In this document: piece by piece, positions 6,765-21,282 of the stretch
Position numbering within the stretch: position 1 is the stretch's first letter
Layout: each line of letters opens with the position of its first letter
Source: a virus
Reading direction: 5' to 3' (one strand)
Virus record (IMG/VR): IMGVR_UViG_3300028829_007380
Location: 1-21,282 of that record
Length of the DNA stretch: 21,282 nt
Made by a program: the position numbers and the translations under genes
The notes under the pieces: generated by a model
Told to the model about the DNA's origin: nothing
Databases searched by the model: none
What the model saw: the letters and a program-made list of their open reading frames with translations, nothing else

Positions 6765-8669
6765 ATGAGTTATTTATTATCAGGTTTAAATATAAAAAAT
6801 ATTTCGGAGTATGATTCTTCCGATGCATATAATAAATATGATGTTATCGATTTTCAGTTGCACAGTCAAAAATCTGCTTATCCGAATTATACAGGTTTTG
6901 GTGAAACAGGTTTGTTATTTTGGTTCAACAATGAATACTTAAATAGTTTTAATTTAGATTTAGATAATTATATTACTGGATGGCTTAACAAAGAAACTTC
7001 TGATGAATCTCCAGATGACATGTATGCAAATTTATTACAGCTTTCTGAAGATAAATCTTTAAGGCCTTTTGTTTATTTTGACGATAATTATATTGAGTTA
7101 TTTGGAGACCAGTTTTTAAGTGGTTCTGGTTTTGATTGCATAGAAAGAACTACTTTTGTATGTTTTGATGCTTCTGTAATTACAGATACTAATCCTGAAC
7201 AAAACATATTTAGGTTTGACAGGGAAGATGGTTGGGCAGAATCAAATTTTATTGCTACTGGACCTTCTGGTTTTTTAAAGATAAAAGGGTCTAATGCTCA
7301 AGGTCAAGCTAAAATTATGGTAGACGAGCAAGAGTTTGACGCGTCTTCTCCTATATATAACGCTTTAAATATAATAACTTTAGTTCAATCATCCGGTAAT
7401 CTTTCTACAGGCCCATCTATAACCGTAAGACAAAACGGTAACCAATTAGGAACTTACGAACATTACTATTCTGGATGGACTTCTGGTTTTCTTAAGTTGG
7501 GAGATACGAACAATCCTAATGGTGTTAAATATTATGATATTTTTTCTTTTAGTGGTGTTTTAAATGAAAGCGAAATCAAATCATATGAAAAATATTTATA
7601 TGAGTCTTATTTTGACAGTAATGATTTTTATTTTGCGAAGGAAGATGTTCCTGCTGGTTTTTCTAACTCTCCTTTAAACTATAGTGGTAATGATTACTGG
7701 ACTCAAGACATAGATGATTTATTTAAGTTAAGTTATGGGTCTTCAGTTAATTTTTCAGCTAAGCTTTCTAGATCGGATTTTGGTGACGGTTATCAGTCTA
7801 ATGTATCTAGGAACATAAATAGTCTAAATAGTGTTTTTGATTTAAAATATGATGGACTTACTGATGTTCAGGCTAAATGCTTGATAGCTTTTTTCGAAAC
7901 AACTCCTGAAGCTGGCATAAAAAATGAGACCGAAGGTTTTGCTGGCGTTAATATTGATTTGTTTCAGCCTTACAAAAAAGATGCAGAGCTTTACTTTTTA
8001 GATATTAATCATTCAACCCCTTATAACGATATAAATACTATATCTATAAAAGCGGAATCATTATATGATAGTAATTTAGATTACAAGGGGATGTCTATTA
8101 AATTAGATGAAAAAAATATAAGAACATATTCTGACTCTTTAGCTGGTTTTGAATATGATGATGTTGTTTATTTGGAGTCGAATTTCTATTCTGAGAGGGG
8201 GTATTATTATTATACGGGGCAAAAAACAAAAACTTCAGTATCTGAAGAAAACTCGCCATTAGGAGCTCAGTCTCATTTTACAAAAGAATTCTATTTTAAA
8301 TCAGATATAGATTATGATATTACCAATCAAATAAATTTAGTTACTATTGATTACGAAGGGTCAACAAAACAATACCTTAAAGATGGTATAAATTACAACG
8401 ATTTAGAATTTAATTTATCTTTTTCAAGCAGATCAAATAAAGAAACTAGAGCGCTATTGAAATTTTTAGATGATAAAGCTGGTTTTAAAATATTTAGATA
8501 TTCTTTACCTCAACCTTATAATAAAGAGATAGATGTTTATTGCCCTGAATGGGATCATACTTATAATTTCCACGACAATAATGATATTCAGGTTAAGTTT
8601 GTGCAATTTAGAGCCAAATCTTCGAAGTTAACTAACTTTGATACACAAATAGATTTCGTAAGTATATAA
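6765..8669 (+). CDS. gpM-like minor tail protein with LamG-like insertion
   Basis: 634 residues, one base after the previous stop. From about residue 330 it shows the lambda gpM-type signature FGDGYQ (339-344), followed by strand patterns ending in YDGLTDVQAKCLIAFFE, which matches the 'F.GL...E...I..FLE' part of the family. A second, more diverged unit of the same kind lies at about 545-622 (LKFLDDKAGFKIFRY), so the gpM core seems duplicated. The N-terminal 290 residues are extra: a short leader with a CBM5/12-like 'YNKYDVIDF' pattern (about 16-31) and a concanavalin/LamG-like beta sandwich (about 98-283) closing with FSGVLNESEIKSYEKYL, the usual end of that fold. In lambda gpM sits at the tail tip between tape measure and gpL; gene order agrees. 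The gpM assignment is good, LamG moderately so. Confidence 0.72.
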   Translation: MSYLLSGLNIKNISEYDSSDAYNKYDVIDFQLHSQKSAYPNYTGFGETGLLFWFNNEYLNSFNLDLDNYITGWLNKETSDESPDDMYANLLQLSEDKSLRPFVYFDDNYIELFGDQFLSGSGFDCIERTTFVCFDASVITDTNPEQNIFRFDREDGWAESNFIATGPSGFLKIKGSNAQGQAKIMVDEQEFDASSPIYNALNIITLVQSSGNLSTGPSITVRQNGNQLGTYEHYYSGWTSGFLKLGDTNNPNGVKYYDIFSFSGVLNESEIKSYEKYLYESYFDSNDFYFAKEDVPAGFSNSPLNYSGNDYWTQDIDDLFKLSYGSSVNFSAKLSRSDFGDGYQSNVSRNINSLNSVFDLKYDGLTDVQAKCLIAFFETTPEAGIKNETEGFAGVNIDLFQPYKKDAELYFLDINHSTPYNDINTISIKAESLYDSNLDYKGMSIKLDEKNIRTYSDSLAGFEYDDVVYLESNFYSERGYYYYTGQKTKTSVSEENSPLGAQSHFTKEFYFKSDIDYDITNQINLVTIDYEGSTKQYLKDGINYNDLEFNLSFSSRSNKETRALLKFLDDKAGFKIFRYSLPQPYNKEIDVYCPEWDHTYNFHDNNDIQVKFVQFRAKSSKLTNFDTQIDFVSI

Positions 8670-8671
8670 TT

Positions 8672-11470
8672 ATGACTACTGAATATAATAATGAAGTTTA
8701 TATGAATCCTGTTCCGACAGGTTTTGGGAGTTATACTGGTGTTTCTATATTTAATAGATCCGCTAAGTCTGTGACTTATGTTGCTGAAATGTCTGAAACA
8801 GTTTTATATAAAGCTGGTGATGTTTTATTGCCGGAAGCAGAAGCTGCAAATCAAAATCTTTATAATACTCTTTTTGTGTCTAGTGATTTAACTGATGTTA
8901 ATACCTTGTTAAATGAAACGGTTCTAACTTTAGGTGCTGGTGAATCTGGTAATATTTATATAGCTCACAAACCTTTTAATACTTTTTCGAGTTCTGCTGT
9001 GGCGAGTACTGGTATAGAAACTGCCACTTTAAATATTGTTTCAGAATCTTCCGCAGGAGATGCTGATGCATTGATTAACATAGAAATAACTGGCCAAAGA
9101 ATTCTAGATCCTCTTTCCCCAGATAAACCCGGAAGATTTTTTGCCATAGAATCTTATGACAGAACTAATAAATATGCATTAAATTTTAATTGGAAACTTC
9201 TAAGTGGGCAATCTTTCGTTACTGGTTTTAAACTAGACTTATGTAGCGATTCTAGTTTTAGTACTCCTGTTAAAGATTCGCCTTATGAAATTCCTATCGC
9301 GAAAAATTTAGAATTTTCTGAGCCAGATTATTTGAGTTATTATAATTATGGTACTATAGATTTTTCATACAAAGTGAATGAATTACCAACCGATGGTGAC
9401 TTGTATTCTAGAATTTTTGCTGTAAACGGTTTGGATGCAAACAGCGATGCTACTTTTTGTACAGGTTTCAAATCTAATATTTTACCATTTATAGATGATG
9501 TAACTTACAGCGGTCTTCATCCTACTCCGGGGGATAATTTAGGTTTTGTTACAGATTTCTTGTTAATTGATTATGTTGTTGACAATAATGAAGTGGATTT
9601 AACAACGGTTCTGTACGAAAACAATGGTGATTCTTATGATTTTACACATTATACGGGTGTCGTTATAAATTTTATATCTTCTGATGCTAACGGAATCTTT
9701 TCCTCTAAAAAAGACGTAGCAGCTATAAGATTAAAAAAACCAGAAAATGGATCTTTTTCTTATAGTGTTAATAGTAGCAACAAGTTTAATTTAGTTTTAA
9801 ACTTTGGTGATGTTTTTGTTGCTGGGTATAATGGTATAGGGGCTAATGAACGATCTGCTGGTGAAAATGGTAGTGCAATTTTTGATTTTGACAATTTAAA
9901 TTATGGTAATAAGGTTTTTGATTATTATATAAATAAAGATAAAGATAGTGTTTTTTATGCAGGTTTGGGGGGAGAGCAATCTTTCAAAATTGACAACAAC
10001 TCAGCTACAAATGTAGAAGAAGGAAGTAAATTAGACCATAGCAATTTATCTGATCTTGATTCAGTTAATAGAACGGAACTAGCTCCGGGACAAAATATCG
10101 TTAAGCAAGCAGGCTCAGATGGTAAGTTGATTAAAGAATCTCCTTCGTCGTTTCCTAATTTGTATTTAGGATTTTCACAAAAAGACGCGAGCAGTTCTAT
10201 TCCTGATTCTAAGCTTTTGTTTAGATTCAAAACAGACGGTATAGCAGATAATGCTGGTACCAAGGTAACTAATTGGTATTCTACTAATGATGACTTAAAT
10301 TTTAAAAACGCTGACGGTGACGATACTTCATTAACCGTAGAAGAAGCTTACGGTAGAAAGTTTTATGAATTAACTGGTGGCAGCAACCAAATTAAAGCTA
10401 TTAAAGCTACTAAGACGCATGGTGGCTCGGAGCCTTCCTTTGGGGGCGGTAACAACCGAAAAGATATTAGGCCAAATTATACAATACTAGTTTTTGCTTT
10501 AGCTAGAAAAGATTTAGAAAATGATAGCTATAGTGATACAGTAGATAAAATGCTCTCTAAATGCGGGGCGATTCATAAGTTTGTTGGTAAAACTAGATGG
10601 GGGTTCGATACAGAAGAAAATTCTTTAAAATTTTGGGGTGAGAGAACTCCTCCTTTTGATCCTAATAAACCAGTATATAATTTTCATAGAGAAGAGGGTG
10701 TTACTAAAAGCTCTTTTGCAGGATCTTGTCTAAATGCTGCTTTTTTTGTGAAGCAAGGTGATTTTTTGCAAAAAGGGATTAACGGGGCTGACGATGCAAG
10801 AGTAGTTGAAAGGCAATATTATTACTTATCTAACCAGCAAACTCAAGACCCAGACAAATGGAAGACTACTAAGGTTAAGACTGGTAGGGAAGTGGCTGAC
10901 TATCAAACTTATAAAAATTTGAATTTAGCTAAAACGCCAGATTTTGAGTCAGCTAATAATTCTAAGTTTCTTTTGAGTGATGGCACTGCTCTTGGAGCTT
11001 TTGAGTTGTTTTTCGTTAAAATGCATTATACTTTGGATAGTTCTGATATAGATCTTGAAAATTTTAGGAAAGGTGGTGATTTTGTAGCTGCTACAAATGA
11101 AACTTTTATAAACGGTAAAAAAGTTTTTAATCAAACGATTCAACATCATCGAGGGATTGAGGTTACCAATTTTGCTCAAAAGATGTTGATACAGCTTAAT
11201 AATAATGATAGCGATGCTGATGATGATACGCGAACTAGACTTTATCTTTTTGATTATCTTTATGGGGCAGCTGAAACCGTTGATGAGAGGGATAGTGGCT
11301 CTGAATCTATTATGCAATATTTATCAAGTTATTATGCTCCCTTAATTGTTAAATCTTCGAGCGCAAAATTAGTAGCAAGAAATAGTGGTAGTAGTGGTCC
11401 AGCTGGCAACGATCAGCTCGCTTTTGATTTGCCTTTAAGCCATAATTATTTAGATTTATATTCAAGTTAA
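8672..11470 (+). CDS. Tail tip protein with Ig-like, FN3-like and LamG-like regions
   Basis: 932 residues, two bases after the gpM-like gene. Residues 1-143 resemble ASH/HYDIN-type Ig-like domains (LTLGAGESGNIYI, then TLNIVSESSAGDADALINIEITG). About 150-275 look like an FN3-like sandwich beginning after PDKPGRF. About 290-445 hold a Gly/Asn-rich beta region containing GANERSAGENG. The second half (about 495-840) has LamG/concanavalin-like hallmarks: FYELTGG early, RPNYTILVFALARKD in the middle and FELFFVKMHYTLDSSDI at the end. There is no catalytic motif I can name. A short GSSGPAG linker lies near the C terminus. Its position between gpM- and gpL-like genes has no counterpart in lambda; it is most likely a tip- or fibre-associated adhesin that binds host glycans. 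Domain calls are by eye and moderate. Confidence 0.58.
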   Translation: MTTEYNNEVYMNPVPTGFGSYTGVSIFNRSAKSVTYVAEMSETVLYKAGDVLLPEAEAANQNLYNTLFVSSDLTDVNTLLNETVLTLGAGESGNIYIAHKPFNTFSSSAVASTGIETATLNIVSESSAGDADALINIEITGQRILDPLSPDKPGRFFAIESYDRTNKYALNFNWKLLSGQSFVTGFKLDLCSDSSFSTPVKDSPYEIPIAKNLEFSEPDYLSYYNYGTIDFSYKVNELPTDGDLYSRIFAVNGLDANSDATFCTGFKSNILPFIDDVTYSGLHPTPGDNLGFVTDFLLIDYVVDNNEVDLTTVLYENNGDSYDFTHYTGVVINFISSDANGIFSSKKDVAAIRLKKPENGSFSYSVNSSNKFNLVLNFGDVFVAGYNGIGANERSAGENGSAIFDFDNLNYGNKVFDYYINKDKDSVFYAGLGGEQSFKIDNNSATNVEEGSKLDHSNLSDLDSVNRTELAPGQNIVKQAGSDGKLIKESPSSFPNLYLGFSQKDASSSIPDSKLLFRFKTDGIADNAGTKVTNWYSTNDDLNFKNADGDDTSLTVEEAYGRKFYELTGGSNQIKAIKATKTHGGSEPSFGGGNNRKDIRPNYTILVFALARKDLENDSYSDTVDKMLSKCGAIHKFVGKTRWGFDTEENSLKFWGERTPPFDPNKPVYNFHREEGVTKSSFAGSCLNAAFFVKQGDFLQKGINGADDARVVERQYYYLSNQQTQDPDKWKTTKVKTGREVADYQTYKNLNLAKTPDFESANNSKFLLSDGTALGAFELFFVKMHYTLDSSDIDLENFRKGGDFVAATNETFINGKKVFNQTIQHHRGIEVTNFAQKMLIQLNNNDSDADDDTRTRLYLFDYLYGAAETVDERDSGSESIMQYLSSYYAPLIVKSSSAKLVARNSGSSGPAGNDQLAFDLPLSHNYLDLYSS

Positions 11471-11471
11471 A

Positions 11472-11687
11472 ATGTCAAATTTATTTTTATTAACAAACAG
11501 TGAAGTTATCGACTTATTTGAAATAAAGTTGAATGATTTTGAGGGTTATTTTTATTTTCATGGGTCGAAAAACTTCAAGGTAGAACGTATTTATATATAC
11601 CTTGTGAAATGTCAAACCTTCAATATGGTTCAGATGGTAAACAAAACAGACCAGTTATTAAGATCTCTAACGTTAATAATTTTATAA
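11472..11687 (+). CDS. N-terminal fragment of gpL-like minor tail protein (frame broken)
   Basis: A 71-codon frame that starts one base after the preceding stop, in the same TAAAATG context as other real genes here. Its first 34 or so residues (SEVIDLFEIKLNDFEGYFYF, then HGSKN) match the expected N terminus of gpL-type proteins, where an LFE-I-L strand and a short Phe/Tyr turn precede the strand GRTYLYIPCE. That next strand is found in the -1 frame (from base 11573), not in this one; here the sequence degenerates into an unrelated tail up to 11687. So this is best read as the front of the gene that continues to 13489. A -1 shift at the A5 run 11568-11572, or one missing A, joins them into about 672 residues. 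A standalone 71-residue protein is unlikely to be functional. Confidence 0.6.
   Translation: MSNLFLLTNSEVIDLFEIKLNDFEGYFYFHGSKNFKVERIYIYLVKCQTFNMVQMVNKTDQLLRSLTLIIL
11565..11576 (+). other. -1 frame break / possible slippery site in the gpL-like gene
   Basis: The sequence TCG AAA AAC TTC in the upstream frame contains a run of five A (11568-11572). Reading on in this frame loses the gpL pattern, while moving to the -1 frame after AAC gives LQGRTYLYIPCEM, which is the expected continuation. The heptamer G AAA AAC only partly fits the X XXY YYZ slippery pattern, so a single-base deletion in the A run (biological or a sequencing/assembly error) is at least as likely as programmed frameshifting. 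No strong stem-loop just downstream was obvious by eye. Confidence 0.55.
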
Positions 11688-13489
11688 GCAATTTAATAAA
11701 AGATAGAGGCAGTTTATTAGGAAAAGAATTTAATAGAAAAAAAATGTTAGCTAAGGATTTGGACGCTGTTAATTTTGATGGCGCGTCCAAAAACCCTTTA
11801 GGTACTTCTAGTTTTAAAGATTTTATTTCAAATGATAAATTTGTAGTAAATAGAAAGAATTCAGAAAATAAAGAAAGAGTAGAGTTTGAGCTGTCTAACA
11901 TATTAGATATAGATGGGTTAGCTTGTCCTTCGAGGAAAGTGTATAACAATACTTGTCAGTGGCAGTATAGAGGTCATGGATGTAATTACGGTAAGCTTTT
12001 AAATTATGATGGTCCTGATGTTCAAGTAACTGAAGCTACAGGAAATACTTTAAAAGCGGTTTTGGATTATTATTCTAACGATTCAATTAAAAATTATCTA
12101 GGGGTTTGGTTAGATTCTAATGGTTTAACTGCTTCATCAGATTTAACAAAATACCGTCGAGCTGACAGCGTAGATATTTTTTCTGGGCCCCTTCCGGGTT
12201 GGAATGCCAGATATTCTGATTTATTTTTCAACACTGCACTTGATAATTCTTGGGTAAATAAAGCGGGCACTTTAAATGATACTCCTGCTAATAATGTGAC
12301 AACTACTCAGAATATGACTTGGAATACTGGTTTGGGGCCAATTATTTTTACAAATTCAGGAAGATTAAAAAATAATTCTGGTGTATGTCCTGTCCGTCCT
12401 AATCTTGGAAAATTTGCTACAAAGCCAAATAGTTCATTTTTAAAACTTAATTTACCTACTAATTACAACACCAAAGATTTAACTATTTTTTATGTATTTG
12501 AGCCAACTACCATTTTTGTGCCTACTAGGGGTTATTTAGGTAGAGCTTTAGAAACAGAAGATCTGCAAACGTATATCGGTGTCCACGGAAGCGGGAGTGA
12601 TTTTAAGCGTAATACAAGTGCTCGTTTAGACTCTTTTCAGATTAAAAATTCTAATATAGGGAATGCAAAAATAAGTAATGTAAGATTTTCGAATCACTCA
12701 GCCGACAGACCTTCTTCATCTGCTGCAAACATTCCTGTAATTTATTCTTGTTCTATTCCAAAAGGTGATGGTGGGGAAATTAATTTTTATAAAAACGGTT
12801 CTCTTCTTAATTCTTCAACAGCAAATTATGGTTCAGGTAATAGTCATGAAATAGATAATTTAGGGTTTAATAAAAGCGTAAAGACTTCTAGTCATATCGT
12901 TATCTACGAAGTTATAATATTCGAAAAACAATTAACTCACAAACAAATAGAAAGCATTAACACTTATTTAGGTAACAAATATGGAATTTCTACTGCTGAT
13001 TCAGAAATTGTGGACTCTGGATGGAAAAAGAGTTCTGCTTTTTTTGATGGAAGCGGTGAAGATGGTAATTTAGGTGTTCCTATGGCTGATGAAAATGATA
13101 AAATGTTTTTAAAAAGTTATGCTGAAAAATTGAAATATTATAATTCTTATAGTTTCAAAGACTTAATTTATAAAGGGGATTATAATAGTAAAACGGTTTA
13201 TCAAAAAGGAGATTTTGTTAAAATCGATGCTAATATAGATTTTGATTTCACTAAAGATTCATTAACTCAAAATTCAGAATTACCACATAGATTTTTTGTA
13301 TGTATATCGCAGCAAGGCTCTAAAGGAATAAATCCTTTGGATAATAGTATTATATGGAAAGAAGATAAATGTTCTAAGAGTTTATCTGGTTGCTCTTTAA
13401 GGTTTGGGTCTGATGAAAACATTGGCAAAAAAATTCCTTTTGGAGCGTTTCCGGGTACAGTAGATTACGATTATGAATTACCTAGCTAA
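11609..13489 (+). CDS. gpL-like Fe-S minor tail protein with large LamG + CBM-like insertion
   Basis: 626 residues from ATG 11609, but the frame is open upstream to about 11543 and encodes expected gpL sequence (GRTYLYIPCE), so the real N terminus probably comes from the fragment at 11472. Residues 1-125 are classic gpL: a SNV strand, NFDGASKNPLG, VEFELSNILDIDGL and then CQWQYRGHGC. The four family cysteines that hold an iron-sulfur cluster in lambda gpL appear with native pair spacing: C116/C125 (CX8C) and C588/C595 (CX6C, CSKSLSGC, followed by LRFG). Between the pairs lie 462 residues instead of about 22. The insert contains a LamG-like domain (about 255-460, ending IESINTYLGNKYGI) and a CBM5/12-like unit (about 519-584, TVYQKGDFV ... 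W583). It overlaps the next gene by 17 bases. Family confident; insert domains moderate. Confidence 0.83.
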   Translation: MSNLQYGSDGKQNRPVIKISNVNNFISNLIKDRGSLLGKEFNRKKMLAKDLDAVNFDGASKNPLGTSSFKDFISNDKFVVNRKNSENKERVEFELSNILDIDGLACPSRKVYNNTCQWQYRGHGCNYGKLLNYDGPDVQVTEATGNTLKAVLDYYSNDSIKNYLGVWLDSNGLTASSDLTKYRRADSVDIFSGPLPGWNARYSDLFFNTALDNSWVNKAGTLNDTPANNVTTTQNMTWNTGLGPIIFTNSGRLKNNSGVCPVRPNLGKFATKPNSSFLKLNLPTNYNTKDLTIFYVFEPTTIFVPTRGYLGRALETEDLQTYIGVHGSGSDFKRNTSARLDSFQIKNSNIGNAKISNVRFSNHSADRPSSSAANIPVIYSCSIPKGDGGEINFYKNGSLLNSSTANYGSGNSHEIDNLGFNKSVKTSSHIVIYEVIIFEKQLTHKQIESINTYLGNKYGISTADSEIVDSGWKKSSAFFDGSGEDGNLGVPMADENDKMFLKSYAEKLKYYNSYSFKDLIYKGDYNSKTVYQKGDFVKIDANIDFDFTKDSLTQNSELPHRFFVCISQQGSKGINPLDNSIIWKEDKCSKSLSGCSLRFGSDENIGKKIPFGAFPGTVDYDYELPS

Positions 13490-13802
13490 ATTAAAGCATA
13501 ATAAATTTTTGTTTAACGATTTAAAAAGCAAATCTTTAGAATCTGAAAAAGAAATTTGTGGTTTTGTGCTTGACGGGAAGTTTGTTCAAAAAAAAAATAT
13601 GCATCCAGATCCTGTTAATCACTTCTTAATCTCTCCGAAAGAATGTATTTGGGGAGGAGATGTGGTTGTTTTTCATAGTCATCCTAATCATGTTGAAGAA
13701 AAAGGTTTTTCAGAATGGGATTTAGAAAATCAAAAATTTTTTTATATGGATATGCTTTTATATAGTGTAAATGAAGATGAATTTTACTTTAAGGAAAAAT
13801 AA
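13473..13802 (+). CDS. gpK-like JAMM/MPN-domain tail assembly peptidase
   Basis: 109 residues, the start overlapping the gpL-like gene by 17 bases, which suggests translational coupling. The JAMM zinc-protease signature is complete: Glu27 in EICGFVL, then H68-S-H70-P and S80-x-x-D83 (HSHP ... SEWD), with two residues more than usual between the second His and the Ser. Lambda gpK has this Mov34/MPN half followed by an NlpC/P60 endopeptidase half; here the protein stops after the JAMM domain and no NlpC/P60 Cys-His motif follows in this or the next gene. Gene order L-K-I-J is exactly as in lambda. It probably acts in tail tip maturation or assembly. The lost NlpC/P60 part, thought to help cut the cell wall, may be encoded elsewhere or be dispensable. 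Confidence 0.85.
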   Translation: MNYLAKLKHNKFLFNDLKSKSLESEKEICGFVLDGKFVQKKNMHPDPVNHFLISPKECIWGGDVVVFHSHPNHVEEKGFSEWDLENQKFFYMDMLLYSVNEDEFYFKEK

Positions 13803-14347
13803 TGGTTAATGTTACTTTAAAAGGTATTTTAGGAAAAAAACTTGGTCCCGATTGGAGCTTGAGCGTTTCTTCTGTTTTTGAGATATTTGAAGCTGTAGAG
13901 GCTAATTCTTCTGCAGTATCTAAAAATTTTTCTGATCTACAGAAATTTGTGACTCATTTTATGGTTTTTGTTGATGGAAAAGCTGTTCCTTATTATTTAA
14001 TGAACAGTAAAATTCTAAAACAAAATAGTAAGGTAGAAATAGTTCCTCTTGTTCAAGGTTCTGCTGCTATTATACCATTTGTTATAGCTATGGTTTTTTC
14101 AATAATATCTATGATAGTGGTAAAACAAATGAGCCCTAAATCGCCAAGAGATGTTAAAACTAATTCAACGATTTTAGGGCAACTTCGAAATGTTTCATCC
14201 AGAAATATTGTAGTACCTATTGGTTACGGTAGGTTAAGATTAGGTAGCTCATTGATTTCTAATTATATAAATGTGCAATCTAATGCTGCAGAAGCTTCAG
14301 GGCCTACAGATCCCATGGATATTACCAGATCATTTGGCTTTTTTTAG
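13802..14347 (+). CDS. gpI-like tail assembly protein
   Basis: 181 residues, the start sharing one base with the previous stop (TAATG). An AAGGA-like stretch at 13791-13795 is the only weak Shine-Dalgarno-like site in the window. The layout is that of lambda gpI: an N-terminal ubiquitin-like (beta-grasp) region of about 80 residues (VTLKGILGKKLGPDWSL near the start, VEIVPLVQG at its end), a hydrophobic helix at about 86-108 (AAIIPFVIAMVFSIISMIVV), and a C-terminal segment with the family motif VPIGYGRLRLGS (about 139-150). gpI is needed to build the tail tip with gpJ, gpL and gpK. It ends in SFGFF just before TAG 14345-14347. Clear assignment from motif plus synteny. Confidence 0.85.
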   Translation: MVNVTLKGILGKKLGPDWSLSVSSVFEIFEAVEANSSAVSKNFSDLQKFVTHFMVFVDGKAVPYYLMNSKILKQNSKVEIVPLVQGSAAIIPFVIAMVFSIISMIVVKQMSPKSPRDVKTNSTILGQLRNVSSRNIVVPIGYGRLRLGSSLISNYINVQSNAAEASGPTDPMDITRSFGFF

Positions 14348-14420: not shown

Positions 14421-17400
14421 ATGAATGTTCCAGCAATTACATACAGTTCTCCCGATGACACAAAATTAGAAAGCGATGAGTTTTTATCTTGCGTAGATTT
14501 AATTTGTGAGGGGCCGATAGCTGGCCTTGTTGATTCTAATGGTAACATTTTAAAATATTTACCTGATGTTCAATATCCAAATATTATTTTAGGCAAAGGG
14601 GTCTATTTTAATAATGTTCCCCTTGTAGATTCCAAACTGAATAAACTTAATTTTGTTACTCAAGGTTTTAATATTTTTAATGGAACACAAAGCAATCATG
14701 CTTTCTACGATAAGCCTTCTACGATATTTAACTATAGACAGAACTTGTTACTAAACGAAAAAAATTATCGTAAGGATGTTACTGGCAACGATCCTGTAAA
14801 TATTCCTGTATATTTTTCGAGACCTTTTAGTTTTCTTCGTTCTGAAGGTAGAATTCAAAACAAAAGACTTTATGAATACGGTGCTGGTCCGTTGGAAGAC
14901 TCAAGCAGTCAACTAGACGTTACCACAGGTAATACCGCAGGAGCGTGGGATAATCTCGCAAAGAACATAGAAGCAGGCAAGGATACTTGCACTCCTTTTA
15001 TTCATGAGTTAAAAAATAAATTCGCAAACAAGGTGACAATTAATCTTTCAGTTGATCAGCTATATAATATTAGCACTAATGGCAGTACCGTAGTTTCTGA
15101 GATTGATTTTGTAATAGAGTTTTTCGAGGACAGTACAAGTGATGCATTTTACTTTTATGTGCCTATAAAAGGCATATCTAAAAGCTCTTATGTTTTTAGT
15201 GTTATTTTGGATTTAGATATAAATCCTTTTTTAGATAAAAAATATTACATAAGAGTTTATTCATTGACTCAAAAAATATCTTTTGATAATGCTAAAACAG
15301 TCGCTTCTATCGGTGTAGCGTCTATAGTTGAAACAGTAGATAATAAGGGAAATTTTACTTACCCGTATTCGGTTGTTGTTGGGTCATCAATTTCTTCGTC
15401 TCATTTTAAAAATCAACCTGACAGAACTTTTGATTTAAAATTATTAAAAATCAAAGTTCCTGATAATTATGATCCTGAATCTAAGTCTTATTCTGGAAAT
15501 TGGAGCGGGGTTTTTAATAAATTTTTAAGGTGGACAGATAATCCGGCTTGGATATTTTATGATATTTGCACTAATGGGAGATACGGAGTAGGGAATGGTA
15601 AGGTTTTGCTAGAAGATCTAAATAAATGGGAGTTATATAAAATAGCTAAATATTGTGACGAATTAGTAGTTTCTACGTCTCCAAGAGGCGCAAGTGAAGA
15701 TTCTTTTACTTACGATCCTGCCGATAAAACACATATTTATTTACAAAAGTCATCTGAAGACGGTCCTGTAAACATTTTGAAGGATTTAGTAGAAAAGTAT
15801 CGTCCGATTTATGGTTATCAGGGTTTCAATGGTGCTGCTGAACCTCATAATTCGCTTATTTTTATTTTTGATATTAATGGTCAAGTTTCGAATAATTATA
15901 AAAAATTTGTCATGAGTATAACAGAAGGAACCTTTGATGATGATGGCGTGTTTAGTGAAACTGATGTAGGGGCAGGTTCATGTTTTAGATTTCATTTAAT
16001 CCCTTGTTTTGGGCCTACATCAGCTTTTGAAAAAGAGCAAACAGGTAGCATGTTGAAGATGTTTAAAGAAAGAATTAGAGCAGCTAGCGAATATAACAAT
16101 AAATCTTCTGGTTATTTAAAAGCTATGCTGGAGAATTCAAAAATAAATACAGAAAACGGGGCCATGGATTCTATTTTGACCTTTATTTCTGAAAAATGGA
16201 ATGAGGCTGGTTATGAGCAATTAAAAACTGATTATATCGAAGCTCCTATTTTTTCTGGTGAGCAATCTTCTTTAACCTTACAAGGAAAATGTTTACCTAG
16301 AGTGCCTCGCTATAGAGACCCTTTAGAGCCTAGATTTACAGCGAATGTTTTTATTAATAATGAAACAGAGTGCTTAAAGTTGTTGAATGATTTAGCTTCA
16401 ATTTTTAGAGGTTTAACTTATTATAGAAATAATTTAATTACAGCTACAATAGATGTTGCGAAACCTATTTCTTATATTTTTAATAATACTAGTGTAAAAG
16501 ATGGGCTTTTTGATTATTCTACAGGAAGTTTAGATGGAAACTATAGTGTCGCAAAAGTTTTGTATAAAGATCGGTATGGTAATTTTAAAGATGAAATTGA
16601 AATTGTAGAAGATAGTGATTTAATCAGAGAATATGGTATTGTTTCAAAAGAGATACTTGGTTTTGGTGTGACTTCTAGGGATCAAGCTAGAAGGATGGGT
16701 TTATGGCTTTTAGCTACAAATAGATTCGAAAATGAGACTGTTTCTTTTTCGACTGATATGCAGGGAATACTATTGAAGCCCGGAGATGTTATTCAAATAG
16801 AAGATTCTTTTAAAAGTGATTTTGTTTTGCATGGTAGAGTTGTGGATGTAAATAGGTCAGAAAAATACATTGTTGTTGATAGACAAATTAGTGTTGAGTT
16901 TGCGGGGAGTAAAATAAAATTTTTGTATGACAGAGATTATAAATCTTTTGAAGATATTTCTAGTTCAGATCAATTTTTTGATCAAGAAAAAAATGATGTT
17001 ATTGAGCTTTTTATAGACTATGTAGATAATAGTACTAATAGAATTTACTTTTCTGAGCCTTTGAATGAGGATGGAAGTTTAAATGAGGAAGCTTTTTCTG
17101 TGTTTTATAAAATTGCTGTATCTTCTCCGTTTATTATCGATATTGATTCAAGTGTCGAAGGTGAGCTCGAACCTTCTGTTGATAATATAAACTTATACAA
17201 AATAGTAAGCATAAGTGAGCAAGACGTAAACGAATATTCTATTTTTGCTATAAAATACGATAAGAATAAATATTCAAGCTTAGATGATAATGTTATGGAT
17301 AAACAAAAAAATATTTTCAAGAAAACTATTTCTTATTCTTCTTCAGAGAATATAGTTGAAATTGATTTGTCTGATATGGACCCATCTTATTATGATTTGA

Positions 17401-17792
17401 CCCAGCATAACATGCAAGATGTTAACCAACTGGATTTTGATTACTCTTTTTGCGAATATGAATCTATTTTATCTAATGGCGGTTCAAATGTTTACGGTTC
17501 TATGAATTTACATTTTGATTTAATTAAAAGCTTTATTGAACAGCAGTCTGATCTTGGGAATAGTTACTATTCAGAAGTCAATAAAGTGCTATCTGTTGGA
17601 GGTGGTTTTATTTGTAAAGTTATTTCTAGTAATCAATCAATTAAATTTAAAGTTCCTTTTTCTGAAGCTGAAAAGAAAAGTATTTTTTTAGGGCAATTCC
17701 CTCAAGACACAGATTCACCTGATATGATATCTTTACAATCTTTTGTGAAAATATATATATACGACATAGAAAATAAAATAATTGAAGTGTAA
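14421..17792 (+). CDS. gpJ-like tail tip / central host-specificity protein
   Basis: 1123 residues, almost the length of lambda gpJ. Family landmarks appear in order: CVDLICEGPIAGLVD at about 24-38 (gpJ 'DLISEGPI.GLV'), NPAWIFYDICTNGRYGVGN at 374-392, and the ET-V-F-D region leading to LLKPGDVIQIED at about 784-796. The conserved strand KIVSISEQDVNEYSIFAIKYD lies around 930-955. gpJ forms the trimeric hub that closes the tail tip and carries host specificity in its C-terminal part. After the last landmark about 170 residues follow that I cannot assign; the FN3 string often found at gpJ C termini is not evident, but an FN3-like region occurs in the next gene only 8 bases downstream. Start chosen at ATG 14421; no Shine-Dalgarno. 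Confidence 0.88.
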   Translation: MNVPAITYSSPDDTKLESDEFLSCVDLICEGPIAGLVDSNGNILKYLPDVQYPNIILGKGVYFNNVPLVDSKLNKLNFVTQGFNIFNGTQSNHAFYDKPSTIFNYRQNLLLNEKNYRKDVTGNDPVNIPVYFSRPFSFLRSEGRIQNKRLYEYGAGPLEDSSSQLDVTTGNTAGAWDNLAKNIEAGKDTCTPFIHELKNKFANKVTINLSVDQLYNISTNGSTVVSEIDFVIEFFEDSTSDAFYFYVPIKGISKSSYVFSVILDLDINPFLDKKYYIRVYSLTQKISFDNAKTVASIGVASIVETVDNKGNFTYPYSVVVGSSISSSHFKNQPDRTFDLKLLKIKVPDNYDPESKSYSGNWSGVFNKFLRWTDNPAWIFYDICTNGRYGVGNGKVLLEDLNKWELYKIAKYCDELVVSTSPRGASEDSFTYDPADKTHIYLQKSSEDGPVNILKDLVEKYRPIYGYQGFNGAAEPHNSLIFIFDINGQVSNNYKKFVMSITEGTFDDDGVFSETDVGAGSCFRFHLIPCFGPTSAFEKEQTGSMLKMFKERIRAASEYNNKSSGYLKAMLENSKINTENGAMDSILTFISEKWNEAGYEQLKTDYIEAPIFSGEQSSLTLQGKCLPRVPRYRDPLEPRFTANVFINNETECLKLLNDLASIFRGLTYYRNNLITATIDVAKPISYIFNNTSVKDGLFDYSTGSLDGNYSVAKVLYKDRYGNFKDEIEIVEDSDLIREYGIVSKEILGFGVTSRDQARRMGLWLLATNRFENETVSFSTDMQGILLKPGDVIQIEDSFKSDFVLHGRVVDVNRSEKYIVVDRQISVEFAGSKIKFLYDRDYKSFEDISSSDQFFDQEKNDVIELFIDYVDNSTNRIYFSEPLNEDGSLNEEAFSVFYKIAVSSPFIIDIDSSVEGELEPSVDNINLYKIVSISEQDVNEYSIFAIKYDKNKYSSLDDNVMDKQKNIFKKTISYSSSENIVEIDLSDMDPSYYDLTQHNMQDVNQLDFDYSFCEYESILSNGGSNVYGSMNLHFDLIKSFIEQQSDLGNSYYSEVNKVLSVGGGFICKVISSNQSIKFKVPFSEAEKKSIFLGQFPQDTDSPDMISLQSFVKIYIYDIENKIIEV

Positions 17793-17800
17793 TATAAAGT

Positions 17801-20800
17801 ATGCCAGTTATTACAGGTCCAACAGGCCCCTCGGGTCCTAGTAGTTTTTTTGAGATAAATAGTTTAACTATAGATAATCTTAATTTTTATAGTGAAGTTG
17901 ATTATATAGTAAGCCCGTCTGTTCATGGGTTAAGCTCTAGCTCTAAGTTGATTTCAGCTTCTCTTCTCCAAGATGATGTTTCTTTTAAGCTGGATATATT
18001 TGACCCTTCTACTAGTAAGGTAATAACTGATTCTTTTGTAAAGTCTACTTACTTTTCTGGCATAAAAGTAGATTTATATGATTCGAATAGAAATTTTATA
18101 AGTAATATACTTGGTTATACTAAAAACACTAATATAAGTTTTACTAGCTCTTCTTTAAAAGATTCTATAGAAATTTATACAGGTTTTGATAGTATAAATA
18201 ATTTTAGAACGTTTTTTTTAGATTTTACTACTTGTAGTATTTATGGTGATAAAGATACGTATAGCAGTTTATTAACATATCCACAAGTAGAAATAACAGG
18301 GTTAGAAGTATTAAATACAAATCCAATACAAATAGCTCCGCTTCTTAACGATTATTCGTATGCCAAAAGTATTTCAACTTATTTAGTTGCAGATCCTAAT
18401 GAATTACCTTCTGGAGATGCAAATCTTTATAATCCTGTTAGTGGGTATTCAGGTCAGGATTTAGTTTATCAAAATAACAGGTCAAAAACTTTTTTTGAGT
18501 TTAGTCCTCCTGCATCTGGGGCCACTTATGTAGATTACACTAATCCTTTTAATTTTATATTTTTGCCGTATGATTATTTTAATACTGGTAGTTATTTTTC
18601 AAGCTCTGGGATTAAAACTTCTTTTTATGAAACAGAAGTAATATCTTCTTCAATAGACAATATAACAGGTTTCGTTTCTGCTTCTCAGAATAAATACGAT
18701 AAGAATTTAGATCTTAAAGCTTTTGTTAAATGGGACGCTATTCAGCAGCAGGAAAACTTATCATTTGAAGCTCATGTTAGCGAAAAAGGTAGCAATCATA
18801 TAAGTTATGTCTTTAATAGCCCTAATACTCAAGTAGAAGCTATTGAATATATAGCCTATGGCACAGGCAATAAGATAATTAATAATTCAGATAGATCTGA
18901 TTATTATTCTGGAGTAGATTCTATTTTTAAAACTTATGGTCAGCAAGGTATTGAGTGGTCTGATCATACTTTATTTGTAGATAATTATAATTCTTTACCT
19001 GTCGGTTTCTATCCTACTGGGTCAAAATTAAGTAGCGTATCAGAAATTCGTATACCTGCTGGAGTATCAGATAGTCCAGAGTTATATTTCGTTTATGATT
19101 ATGAACCTTCTACGAATTCTTTTTCTATCTTGCCAAGTGGGGGTCAATATGCTGGGGATGTTTACACAGGTACTTATACTGGAGCAAAATATACTGGAGT
19201 TTATTCTAATTCAGAAGACTATGGGCCTTCGGGTTACGATGGTATATCAGGTAAATCTCCTATTTATGTAGATTTTGAAAGCGGCACGTTATTAGCTAAA
19301 AGAATAACAGGGTTTACAGGTGAAATTGATTTTATATTATCTGAATTTGAGCCTAAGATTGAATTTAATGTAAAACCCAATAAAGATTATGAGATAAAAG
19401 TAAGAGCTTCTTATGAAGATGGAACTTCTTCTGATTTTTCAGAAACCTTGTTATTTACTTCAGGCCAAATATTAAATAATGTAGAAAGTATATTTTCCGG
19501 TAGCTATGTTTTAGCTGGTTCTGGTATTAGTGGTTTTGTTCCTTACTTTAGTGGCGACGATTTACTTGAAAACTCTGTTATCTATCAAAATGCGTCTGGG
19601 AATTTAGGACTGAATAAAATAGAACCATCTGGCCAGTTGCACATAGGTGGGGATTTATATATTGATAACGTTATAGAAGATGAAAATACTAATAAATTTT
19701 TAGTTTGGGATTCTTCTACTCGTTTAGTTAGTTATTCAACAAGTGGTGGAGGTGGTGATTCAGGTTCTTCTGGAACTAGTGGAACTTCTGGAACTAGTGG
19801 AACTTCTGGAACTTCAGGTGCAGATGGTACTAGTGGTTCTTCAGGCTCTTCTGGGATTGATGGTGGTCAAGGATCTACAGGTTCATCTGGAGCAAGTGGT
19901 TCATCTGGATCTAGTGGATCAAGTGGTTCATCTGGATCAAGTGGTTCATCTGGTTCTTCTGGATCTAGTGGATCTTCAGGCTCTTCTGGGATTGATGGTG
20001 GTCAAGGATCTACAGGTTCATCTGGAGCAAGTGGTTCATCTGGATCTAGTGGATCAAGTGGTTCATCTGGATCAAGTGGTTCATCTGGTTCATCTGGATC
20101 AAGTGGTTCATCTGGTTCTTCTGGATCTAGTGGATCTTCAGGCTCTTCTGGGATTGATGGTGGTCAAGGATCTACAGGTTCATCTGGTTCAAGTGGTTCA
20201 TCTGGATCTTCAGGTTTATTGAGTTTAATGGGATCAACAGATAACGGTGTGATCACATTGAATGGCAGCGCTCCTAATGCCACTGTTGAAAGTGGTGTAG
20301 TGATTTCTGGTGGTAATCTTGGTATAGGTACAATAAGTCCTACTCAAAAACTCCACGTTGTTGGTAAAGCTTTAATTACTGACGATGTACAATTAACAGG
20401 TAGCAACCCTAGAATAGATTTTAATACTAATGGGTCAAGCTCTCTAAGGTTTTACGATACGAATAATGCTGCAGAAAGAATGCGTATTAATACCAGCGGT
20501 AACGTTGGGATCAATACAGCAAGCCCTACTTCTAAATTACAAGTAGTCGGTTCTACCTCTGGAGATTCAGTGTTAAAGATCGACGGGACAAATGGAACAT
20601 TGTTCGAAGTTGTCGATGACCTTAGTGATTCATTAATGTCTGTAAATGATGCAGCGGGTCTACCGGTGTTTGAGGTTTTTGCTGATAATCATATAGTTGC
20701 TGGTAGGTATAATCAAAACGACTTTTATTTAAATACCGATGGAAGCTTAGGATTAGGAACAAGCGCTCCTTCTTCGGTTTTAGATATATATGAACAAAGC

Positions 20801-21282
20801 GGTAAAGATAATAAATTAAGATTTCATAGCAGCACAACTGGATCGGGAACATCGAACGGTTCTAGAATAGGTTTAAATGGGGCAGAGTTATTCATTAATA
20901 ACATCGAAAATAGTGCTATTAAAATATACACCCAATCCACTCAAACTAATGGCATAACTATATTAGGCGATGGTAAAGTTGGTATGGGTACAACTACTCC
21001 GTCAACCACACTTCATGTCGCAGGTAAGGTAACAGTAGACACTCTTGACACAGATGCAAGCTTAACTAACTTTGTGGTTGTTGATGGTAATGGAGAATTG
21101 CATATAAGAACAAGTGGAGCTTCTGGTTCTTCAGGATCTTCTGGATCTAGTGGATCTTCAGGTAATACTGGTGGTTCAGGAACTTCTGGATCTTCTGGAT
21201 CTTCTGGATCTAGTGGGTCTTCAGGTAATACTGGTGGTTCAGGAACTTCTGGATCTTCTGGATCTTCTGGATCTAGTGGGTC
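17801..21282 (+). CDS. Receptor-binding tail fibre with Gly-Ser-Ser repeats (3'-truncated)
   Basis: Open from ATG 17801 to the right edge (1160 codons plus 2 bases, no stop). Residues 5-14 are a Gly-Pro-rich mini-collagen (TGPTGPSGPS). Residues 15 to about 485 are beta-rich and unassigned. About 490-555 is FN3-like (YEIKVRASYEDGTSSDFSETL). A fibre motif LGLNKIEP at 602 precedes the linker NKFLVWDSSTRLVSYSTSG. Residues 655-805 are about 50 Gly-X-X triplets, mostly GSS/GTS, with GIDGGQGSTG repeated three times. Then come four beta motifs (GIGTISP 841, VGINTASP 902, LGLGTSAP 983, VGMGTTTP 1060), a second linker NFVVVDGNGELHIRTSG and a second GSS block from 1106. It is therefore a long shaft of alternating beta and glycine-repeat modules, following gpJ where lambda-like side or central fibres lie. 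The receptor-binding tip is beyond the window. Confidence 0.82.
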   Translation, partial: MPVITGPTGPSGPSSFFEINSLTIDNLNFYSEVDYIVSPSVHGLSSSSKLISASLLQDDVSFKLDIFDPSTSKVITDSFVKSTYFSGIKVDLYDSNRNFISNILGYTKNTNISFTSSSLKDSIEIYTGFDSINNFRTFFLDFTTCSIYGDKDTYSSLLTYPQVEITGLEVLNTNPIQIAPLLNDYSYAKSISTYLVADPNELPSGDANLYNPVSGYSGQDLVYQNNRSKTFFEFSPPASGATYVDYTNPFNFIFLPYDYFNTGSYFSSSGIKTSFYETEVISSSIDNITGFVSASQNKYDKNLDLKAFVKWDAIQQQENLSFEAHVSEKGSNHISYVFNSPNTQVEAIEYIAYGTGNKIINNSDRSDYYSGVDSIFKTYGQQGIEWSDHTLFVDNYNSLPVGFYPTGSKLSSVSEIRIPAGVSDSPELYFVYDYEPSTNSFSILPSGGQYAGDVYTGTYTGAKYTGVYSNSEDYGPSGYDGISGKSPIYVDFESGTLLAKRITGFTGEIDFILSEFEPKIEFNVKPNKDYEIKVRASYEDGTSSDFSETLLFTSGQILNNVESIFSGSYVLAGSGISGFVPYFSGDDLLENSVIYQNASGNLGLNKIEPSGQLHIGGDLYIDNVIEDENTNKFLVWDSSTRLVSYSTSGGGGDSGSSGTSGTSGTSGTSGTSGADGTSGSSGSSGIDGGQGSTGSSGASGSSGSSGSSGSSGSSGSSGSSGSSGSSGSSGIDGGQGSTGSSGASGSSGSSGSSGSSGSSGSSGSSGSSGSSGSSGSSGSSGSSGIDGGQGSTGSSGSSGSSGSSGLLSLMGSTDNGVITLNGSAPNATVESGVVISGGNLGIGTISPTQKLHVVGKALITDDVQLTGSNPRIDFNTNGSSSLRFYDTNNAAERMRINTSGNVGINTASPTSKLQVVGSTSGDSVLKIDGTNGTLFEVVDDLSDSLMSVNDAAGLPVFEVFADNHIVAGRYNQNDFYLNTDGSLGLGTSAPSSVLDIYEQSGKDNKLRFHSSTTGSGTSNGSRIGLNGAELFINNIENSAIKIYTQSTQTNGITILGDGKVGMGTTTPSTTLHVAGKVTVDTLDTDASLTNFVVVDGNGELHIRTSGASGSSGSSGSSGSSGNTGGSGTSGSSGSSGSSGSSGNTGGSGTSGSSGSSGSSG
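19763..20215 (+). repeat. Coding Gly-Ser-Ser repeat tract, block 1
   Basis: About 50 nine-base Gly-X-X units inside the fibre gene. Superimposed is a longer near-identical direct repeat: copy 1 at 19844-19978 (135 bases), copy 2 at 19979-20140 (162 bases, the same sequence with 27 extra bases) and a partial copy 3 from 20141. All lengths are multiples of 9, so frame and triplet phase are kept. X and Y are almost only Ser and Thr, with no proline, unlike ordinary collagen. The high base identity between copies points to recent slippage or unequal recombination, and makes copy number uncertain in a short-read assembly. Confidence 0.93.
21116..21282 (+). repeat. Coding Gly-Ser-Ser repeat tract, block 2 (cut by window edge)
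   Basis: A second glycine-repeat block in the same fibre gene. It contains a perfect tandem repeat of 63 bases (7 Gly-X-X units, including GNTGGSGTSG): the first copy is 21163-21225 and the second begins at 21226, is identical over all 57 visible bases and runs off the edge. It follows the linker TSG in the same way as block 1 does. Confidence 0.92.

Follow-up and report, generated by a model that had tools for sequence, protein, structure and literature searches.

The window, by which we mean the whole stretch of DNA analysed here, is a 21,282-base virus record whose tail genes follow the order known from lambda: a gpM-like gene (PF05939), gpL, a JAB-type gpK-like gene, a gpI-like gene and gpJ, with an extra gene encoding 932 aa between M and L. 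The gene at 11573-13489 matched PF05100 with 114.7 bits (cut-off 25) and the equivalog model TIGR01600 with 112.4 bits (cut-off 70.75), and its neighbours were identified by PHROG and Pfam matches (PF05939, phrog_30, phrog_32 and phrog_31). With both models above cut-off and the M-L-K-I-J order preserved, this gene is a true gpL. The features of the locus are listed below.

6765-8669, plus strand: gpM-like protein, with PF05939 at its C-terminus and a possible second jelly-roll domain at its N-terminus
11472-11570, plus strand: N-terminal piece of gpL (start MSNLFLLTNSEVIDLFEIKL...), in another frame than the rest (alignment with the relatives L001-L003; weak phrog_18 match)
11573-11983, plus strand: gpL HDI scaffold and first Fe-S half, up to and including cysteine pair 1 (scores above cut-off for PF05100 and TIGR01600; fold match to 8iyk_L)
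11984-13063, plus strand: insert 1, a predicted concanavalin/LamG-type jelly roll with flanking linkers, fast evolving (AlphaFold2 prediction for the L001 orthologue plus fold search; region-wise identity and pN/pS)
13064-13102, plus strand: conserved segment GNLGVPMADENDK between inserts 1 and 2 (motif in nearly all long- and short-class relatives)
13169-13354, plus strand: insert 2, a predicted small beta module of about 62 residues, also present in the short class (alignment; confident strands in the model)
13355-13489, plus strand: second Fe-S half with cysteine pair 2, followed by the gpL C-terminus, which bears the PFGxFPG motif (second PF05100 stretch 13358-13459; conserved in 37/37)
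13473-13802, plus strand: gpK-like protein (PHROG/Pfam matches)
13802-14347, plus strand: gpI-like protein (PHROG/Pfam matches)
14421-17792, plus strand: gpJ (PHROG/Pfam matches)

Several neighbouring genes have features of their own. The gpM-like protein carries two PF05939 matches per chain in 8/8 relatives checked, as if gpM had been duplicated and fused. The 932-aa protein (8672-11470) also looks like a fusion: in many relatives two separate adjacent genes encode an N-terminal half of about 480 aa and a C-terminal half of about 490 aa. The gpK-like protein, only 109 aa long, matched JAB weakly and no NlpC/P60-type family. The last ORF (17801-21280, open at the window end) contains long collagen-like GSS/GxS repeats, its matches to NCBIfam collagen-like adhesin models were far below cut-off, and it is probably a side or tail fibre.

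Alignment with L001-L003 revealed that the window copy of gpL lacks 19 nt near 11570 (within 11560-11580), which breaks the gpL frame. The frames of these three relatives are intact and begin at MSNLFLLTNSEVIDLFEIKL, which in the window lies at 11472 within ORF 11472-11687; this ORF is the true N-terminal piece of gpL, read out of frame. The starts assigned in the first-pass annotation, at 11573 and 11609, are thus not the natural ones. The deletion is either a real mutation or an assembly error, and because it breaks the frame, the structure and start site reported here rest on the intact relatives. The same deletion could be taken to mean that the long insert described below is an assembly artefact or a chance joining of two genes in the window contig. 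However, the same continuous reading frame was found in dozens of independent contigs, which rules this explanation out and leaves it with practically no probability.

The gpL of the window keeps two cysteine pairs at lambda-like spacing. Numbered from the ATG at 11609, the first (CX8C) is C116/C125 in CQWQYRGHGC at 11954-11983 and the second (CX6C) is C588/C595 in CSKSLSGC at 13370-13393. Recounting the positions confirmed that the two pairs are 462 residues apart, as initially claimed, against 22 in lambda. PF05100 matched in two stretches flanking the insert, 11573-12040 (2.6e-31) and 13358-13459 (3.3e-5), and the second stretch bears out the earlier assignment of CSKSLSGC as the C-terminal pair of gpL. 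In the phmmer search, the first stretch aligned significantly with lambda gpL (PDB 8iyk chain L), and this match extended weakly to CSKSLSGC, which aligned with lambda DKCSKCLSGC. All four cysteines, with exact spacing within the pairs, were present in 37/37 long-class sequences, which excludes chance. Judged from these alignments, the pairs are homologues of the lambda gpL Fe-S pairs, whose cluster ligands are Cys173, 182, 205 and 212 (PMC10721106).

We then scanned IMG/VR viral contigs, first with the protein and subsequently with an alignment, which yielded 56 distinct gpL sequences. The long class comprised 36 distinct sequences (one incomplete at the N-terminus) with 385-525 residues between the cysteine pairs, showing that the split found in the window is not peculiar to its contig. 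The short class contained 18 distinct sequences with 123-157 residues between the pairs and unchanged cysteines. One of the remaining two was cut by a contig end, and the other, L008, has 22 residues between the pairs. A distance of 22 was also found in 49/67 measured members of the L008 family (the others had 8, 25, 34, 108 or 159) and in 79/80 gpL proteins of the cyanophage type, with 21 in the remaining one. No INPHARED phage carries the long insert and only weak C-terminal matches were obtained there; the clade, which consists of uncultured phages, is without a close relative in INPHARED. A scan of genome contigs gave no relative.

The GNLGVPMADENDK motif, found in nearly all long- and short-class members, parts the large insert from the small one and by eye appears to resemble PAVADEYDQ of lambda. 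The large insert is absent from the short class, whereas the small one is present in both classes. There are, accordingly, two separate inserts at two insertion points rather than one insert. The series of 22, about 140 and about 450 residues would most simply reflect a stepwise gain of modules. Two members of the L008 gpL family carry their own, unrelated-looking inserts between the same cysteine pairs (159 residues in L136:1820-3076 and 108 residues in L145:3001-4155), pointing to an insertion hotspot. In other gpL families, additional sequence sits at a second location, downstream of the CX6C pair but ahead of the PFGxFPG motif; it amounts to about 65 aa in the cyanophage-type L170 (L170:2453-3400), L233 and others, and is much longer in L008 (L008:5653-7296).

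To obtain a structural view of the inserts, we used AlphaFold2 on the intact L001 orthologue (84% identity to the window protein). The model built with 77 sequences reached a mean pLDDT of 76.8; an earlier run with 7 sequences (pLDDT 34) was discarded. Residues 1-156 of the L001 model matched 8iyk_L with a Z score of 16.3 over 151 residues (rmsd 3.0), that is, the HDI fold of lambda gpL. Residues from about 196 to 500 gave jelly-roll matches with Z scores of about 15-16 over about 200 residues, including the tailspike of cyanopodophage Pan3 (15.9), domain 4 of the arabinanase AbnA (15-15.7), and, at about 15, the C-terminal domains of sialidases and the binding domains of clostridial neurotoxins. 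The sialidase and toxin matches reflect a shared fold and have no bearing on toxicity. In a fold search of a viral library, the insert also matched many proteins annotated as concanavalin A-like or LamG. Together, these matches support the prediction that insert 1 holds a separately folding concanavalin-type sandwich. A jelly-roll fold alone does not prove glycan binding, and searches of 24 members with E values up to 1 returned no lectin Pfam profile such as Laminin_G_3, only chance-level matches.

Insert 2 has confident strands in the L001 model. It gave no Pfam family match in 21 members beyond chance level and no convincing match in the PDB profile search, and it did not match the module at the N-terminus of the L008 gpL family either (hhalign 3.5%). 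The first-pass annotation had described the insert as a LamG/concanavalin-like domain plus a CBM5/12-like unit. The first part is upheld by structure prediction, though not by sequence profiles; the CBM5/12-like unit found no backing in Pfam, the PDB profile search or hhalign and must be regarded as a motif impression. Comparison of insert 1 with the N-terminal domain of the gpM-like protein gave an hhalign probability of 35%, which is suggestive only, and comparison with the C-terminal part of the 932-aa protein was negative.

We further compared the evolution of the insert with that of the scaffold. Mean pairwise identity within the long class was 73% for both scaffold parts, 34% for the large insert and 55% for the small module. 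Between the window and L001, the scaffold had pN 0.018 and pS 0.189, whereas the insert had pN 0.114 and pS 0.123, so that pN/pS between the window and its nearest relative was about 0.9 in the insert and 0.1 in the scaffold. The nonsynonymous excess in the insert had a Fisher p of 4.9e-4 against L001 and 6.6e-5 against L003; these pN/pS and Fisher figures are counts on a few related pairs rather than a codon-model test. The insert evolves much faster than the scaffold. In the closest informative pair the synonymous divergence of the insert was not raised, which makes it unnecessary to invoke replacement from a distant source for this pair. In the L004/L006 pair, change clustered in one block, the pattern expected of recombination. 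Compared with L001, the 932-aa neighbour was likewise variable in its C-terminal half, where synonymous divergence was raised; the gpM-like protein showed no such variability.

A high pN/pS in the insert can also stem from relaxed constraint. Many phage tails carry Ig-like domains, and the insert might similarly decorate the tip in a structural or protective role, recognising no specific glycan and varying because constraint is relaxed. The missing lectin match at the sequence level is consistent with this, as is a pN/pS that is near 1 and not clearly above 1 in the closest informative pair. However, the fold is kept over about 300-400 residues in distant relatives at about 25-30% identity and is not eroded or lost in the long class, and ConA-type domains are common in carbohydrate recognition. 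We therefore consider mere decoration rather unlikely.

Close parallels come from two other tail hubs, one of a gene transfer agent (RcGTA) and one of a marine phage (R4C). Phage lambda gpL itself (8iyk chain L) shares the HDI scaffold fold, the CX8C and CX6C pairs and the gene order M-L-K-I-J, but it has 22 residues between the pairs, compared with 462 and two added modules in the window. In the RcGTA hub gp13, cryo-EM showed an Fe-S domain made up of residues 143-167 and 250-263, with residues 168-249 in between forming an oligosaccharide-binding domain (Bardy et al. 2020, PMC7296036). Similarly, the R4C hub has segments 142-161 and 244-266 around an oligosaccharide-binding domain at 162-243, and its cluster was seen by cryo-EM (PMC10276861). 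We located the cysteines of the roseophage vB_DshS-R4C hub (CDS 11457-12332 of MK882925) at C147/C157 and C244/C251, 86 residues apart, on either side of the oligosaccharide-binding domain as with the gpL insert. The gpL insert, an independent beta domain between the cysteine pairs (its position given by sequence, its jelly roll by prediction), follows this type of design. There are differences: the RcGTA insert is about 82 residues long and of another fold in a hub family that differs by sequence, and in R4C the first pair is CX9C and the insert is not a concanavalin-type lectin. We compare these inserts in how they may work and do not claim common descent for them. In both hubs, saccharide binding was likewise deduced from the fold (PMC7296036, PMC10276861).

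These hubs also contradict the initial statement that no gpL of this design had been described: both carry a smaller insert at the same place, so the general design is not new. Evolved Dit proteins with carbohydrate-binding insertions likewise represent a tail-tip scaffold that gained saccharide-binding insertions, although the scaffold is a different one and appears to have no Fe-S site (e.g. PMC10688798). The LSH1 hub study called the C-terminal region of gpL a focus of hypervariability, but it concerns loss or replacement of the gpL C domain and not a lectin between the cysteine pairs (PMC13243795). New, within the open-access literature covered, are a predicted concanavalin-type domain, roughly 275-410 residues long, between the cysteine pairs of a lambda-type gpL, the two insertion points and modular size series in lambda-type gpL, and the rapid evolution of the insert.

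The RcGTA and R4C hubs bear on the Fe-S site as well. Residues 151-165 and 169-183 of the L001 model, around the first cysteine pair, had pLDDT values mostly under 50, and at this confidence the model does not show the two pairs converging. This is compatible with a reading in which the insert has parted the pairs, leaving a non-functional Fe-S site whose cysteines are kept for other structural reasons, and it counts against the explanation we propose below. However, the four cysteines are kept at exact spacing in all 37 long-class and all short-class sequences, and R4C and RcGTA keep the cluster despite an insert at the same point. A dead Fe-S site in this clade is thus very unlikely.

Given that the lectin-fold module changes fast while the scaffold stays fixed, we propose that it is a host-surface recognition element. 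The loop between the gpL Fe-S cysteine pairs would hold two modules, one a lectin-fold domain of the concanavalin/LamG type and the other a small beta module. The two Fe-S half-domains are expected to meet regardless of the insert and presumably form the cluster, and the joined halves would act as a staple that fixes both insert ends on the outside of the tail tip, with the insert facing outwards. If the copy number is three, as in lambda, three lectin-fold domains would be displayed around the cone, where they may bind glycans and take part in recognising the host surface or capsule. In favour of this explanation, the same insertion point in the RcGTA and R4C hubs carries an oligosaccharide-binding domain; the lack of a lectin profile match in the insert counts against it. 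The Fe-S domain of lambda gpL lies on the outer surface, which favours outward display, and the role of its cluster was stated to be unresolved (PMC10721106). Taken together, we consider it likely that this lambda-type gpL closes its Fe-S halves around the two modules and displays the lectin folds for host-glycan recognition.

We also considered a more far-reaching and highly improbable extension, in which the stapled loop would be the main fast-changing receptor site of the clade and glycan binding would open the hub through the cluster-held loop; if true, the conserved cluster would have a mechanical signalling role. Returning to the display of lectin folds, the cysteines are unchanged across the series of 22, about 140 and about 450 residues, suggesting that the cluster can serve as a staple that tolerates domain insertion. 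The finding would mark the loop between the Fe-S pairs as an evolvable adhesion site in different tails, namely those of RcGTA, R4C and the clade of the window.
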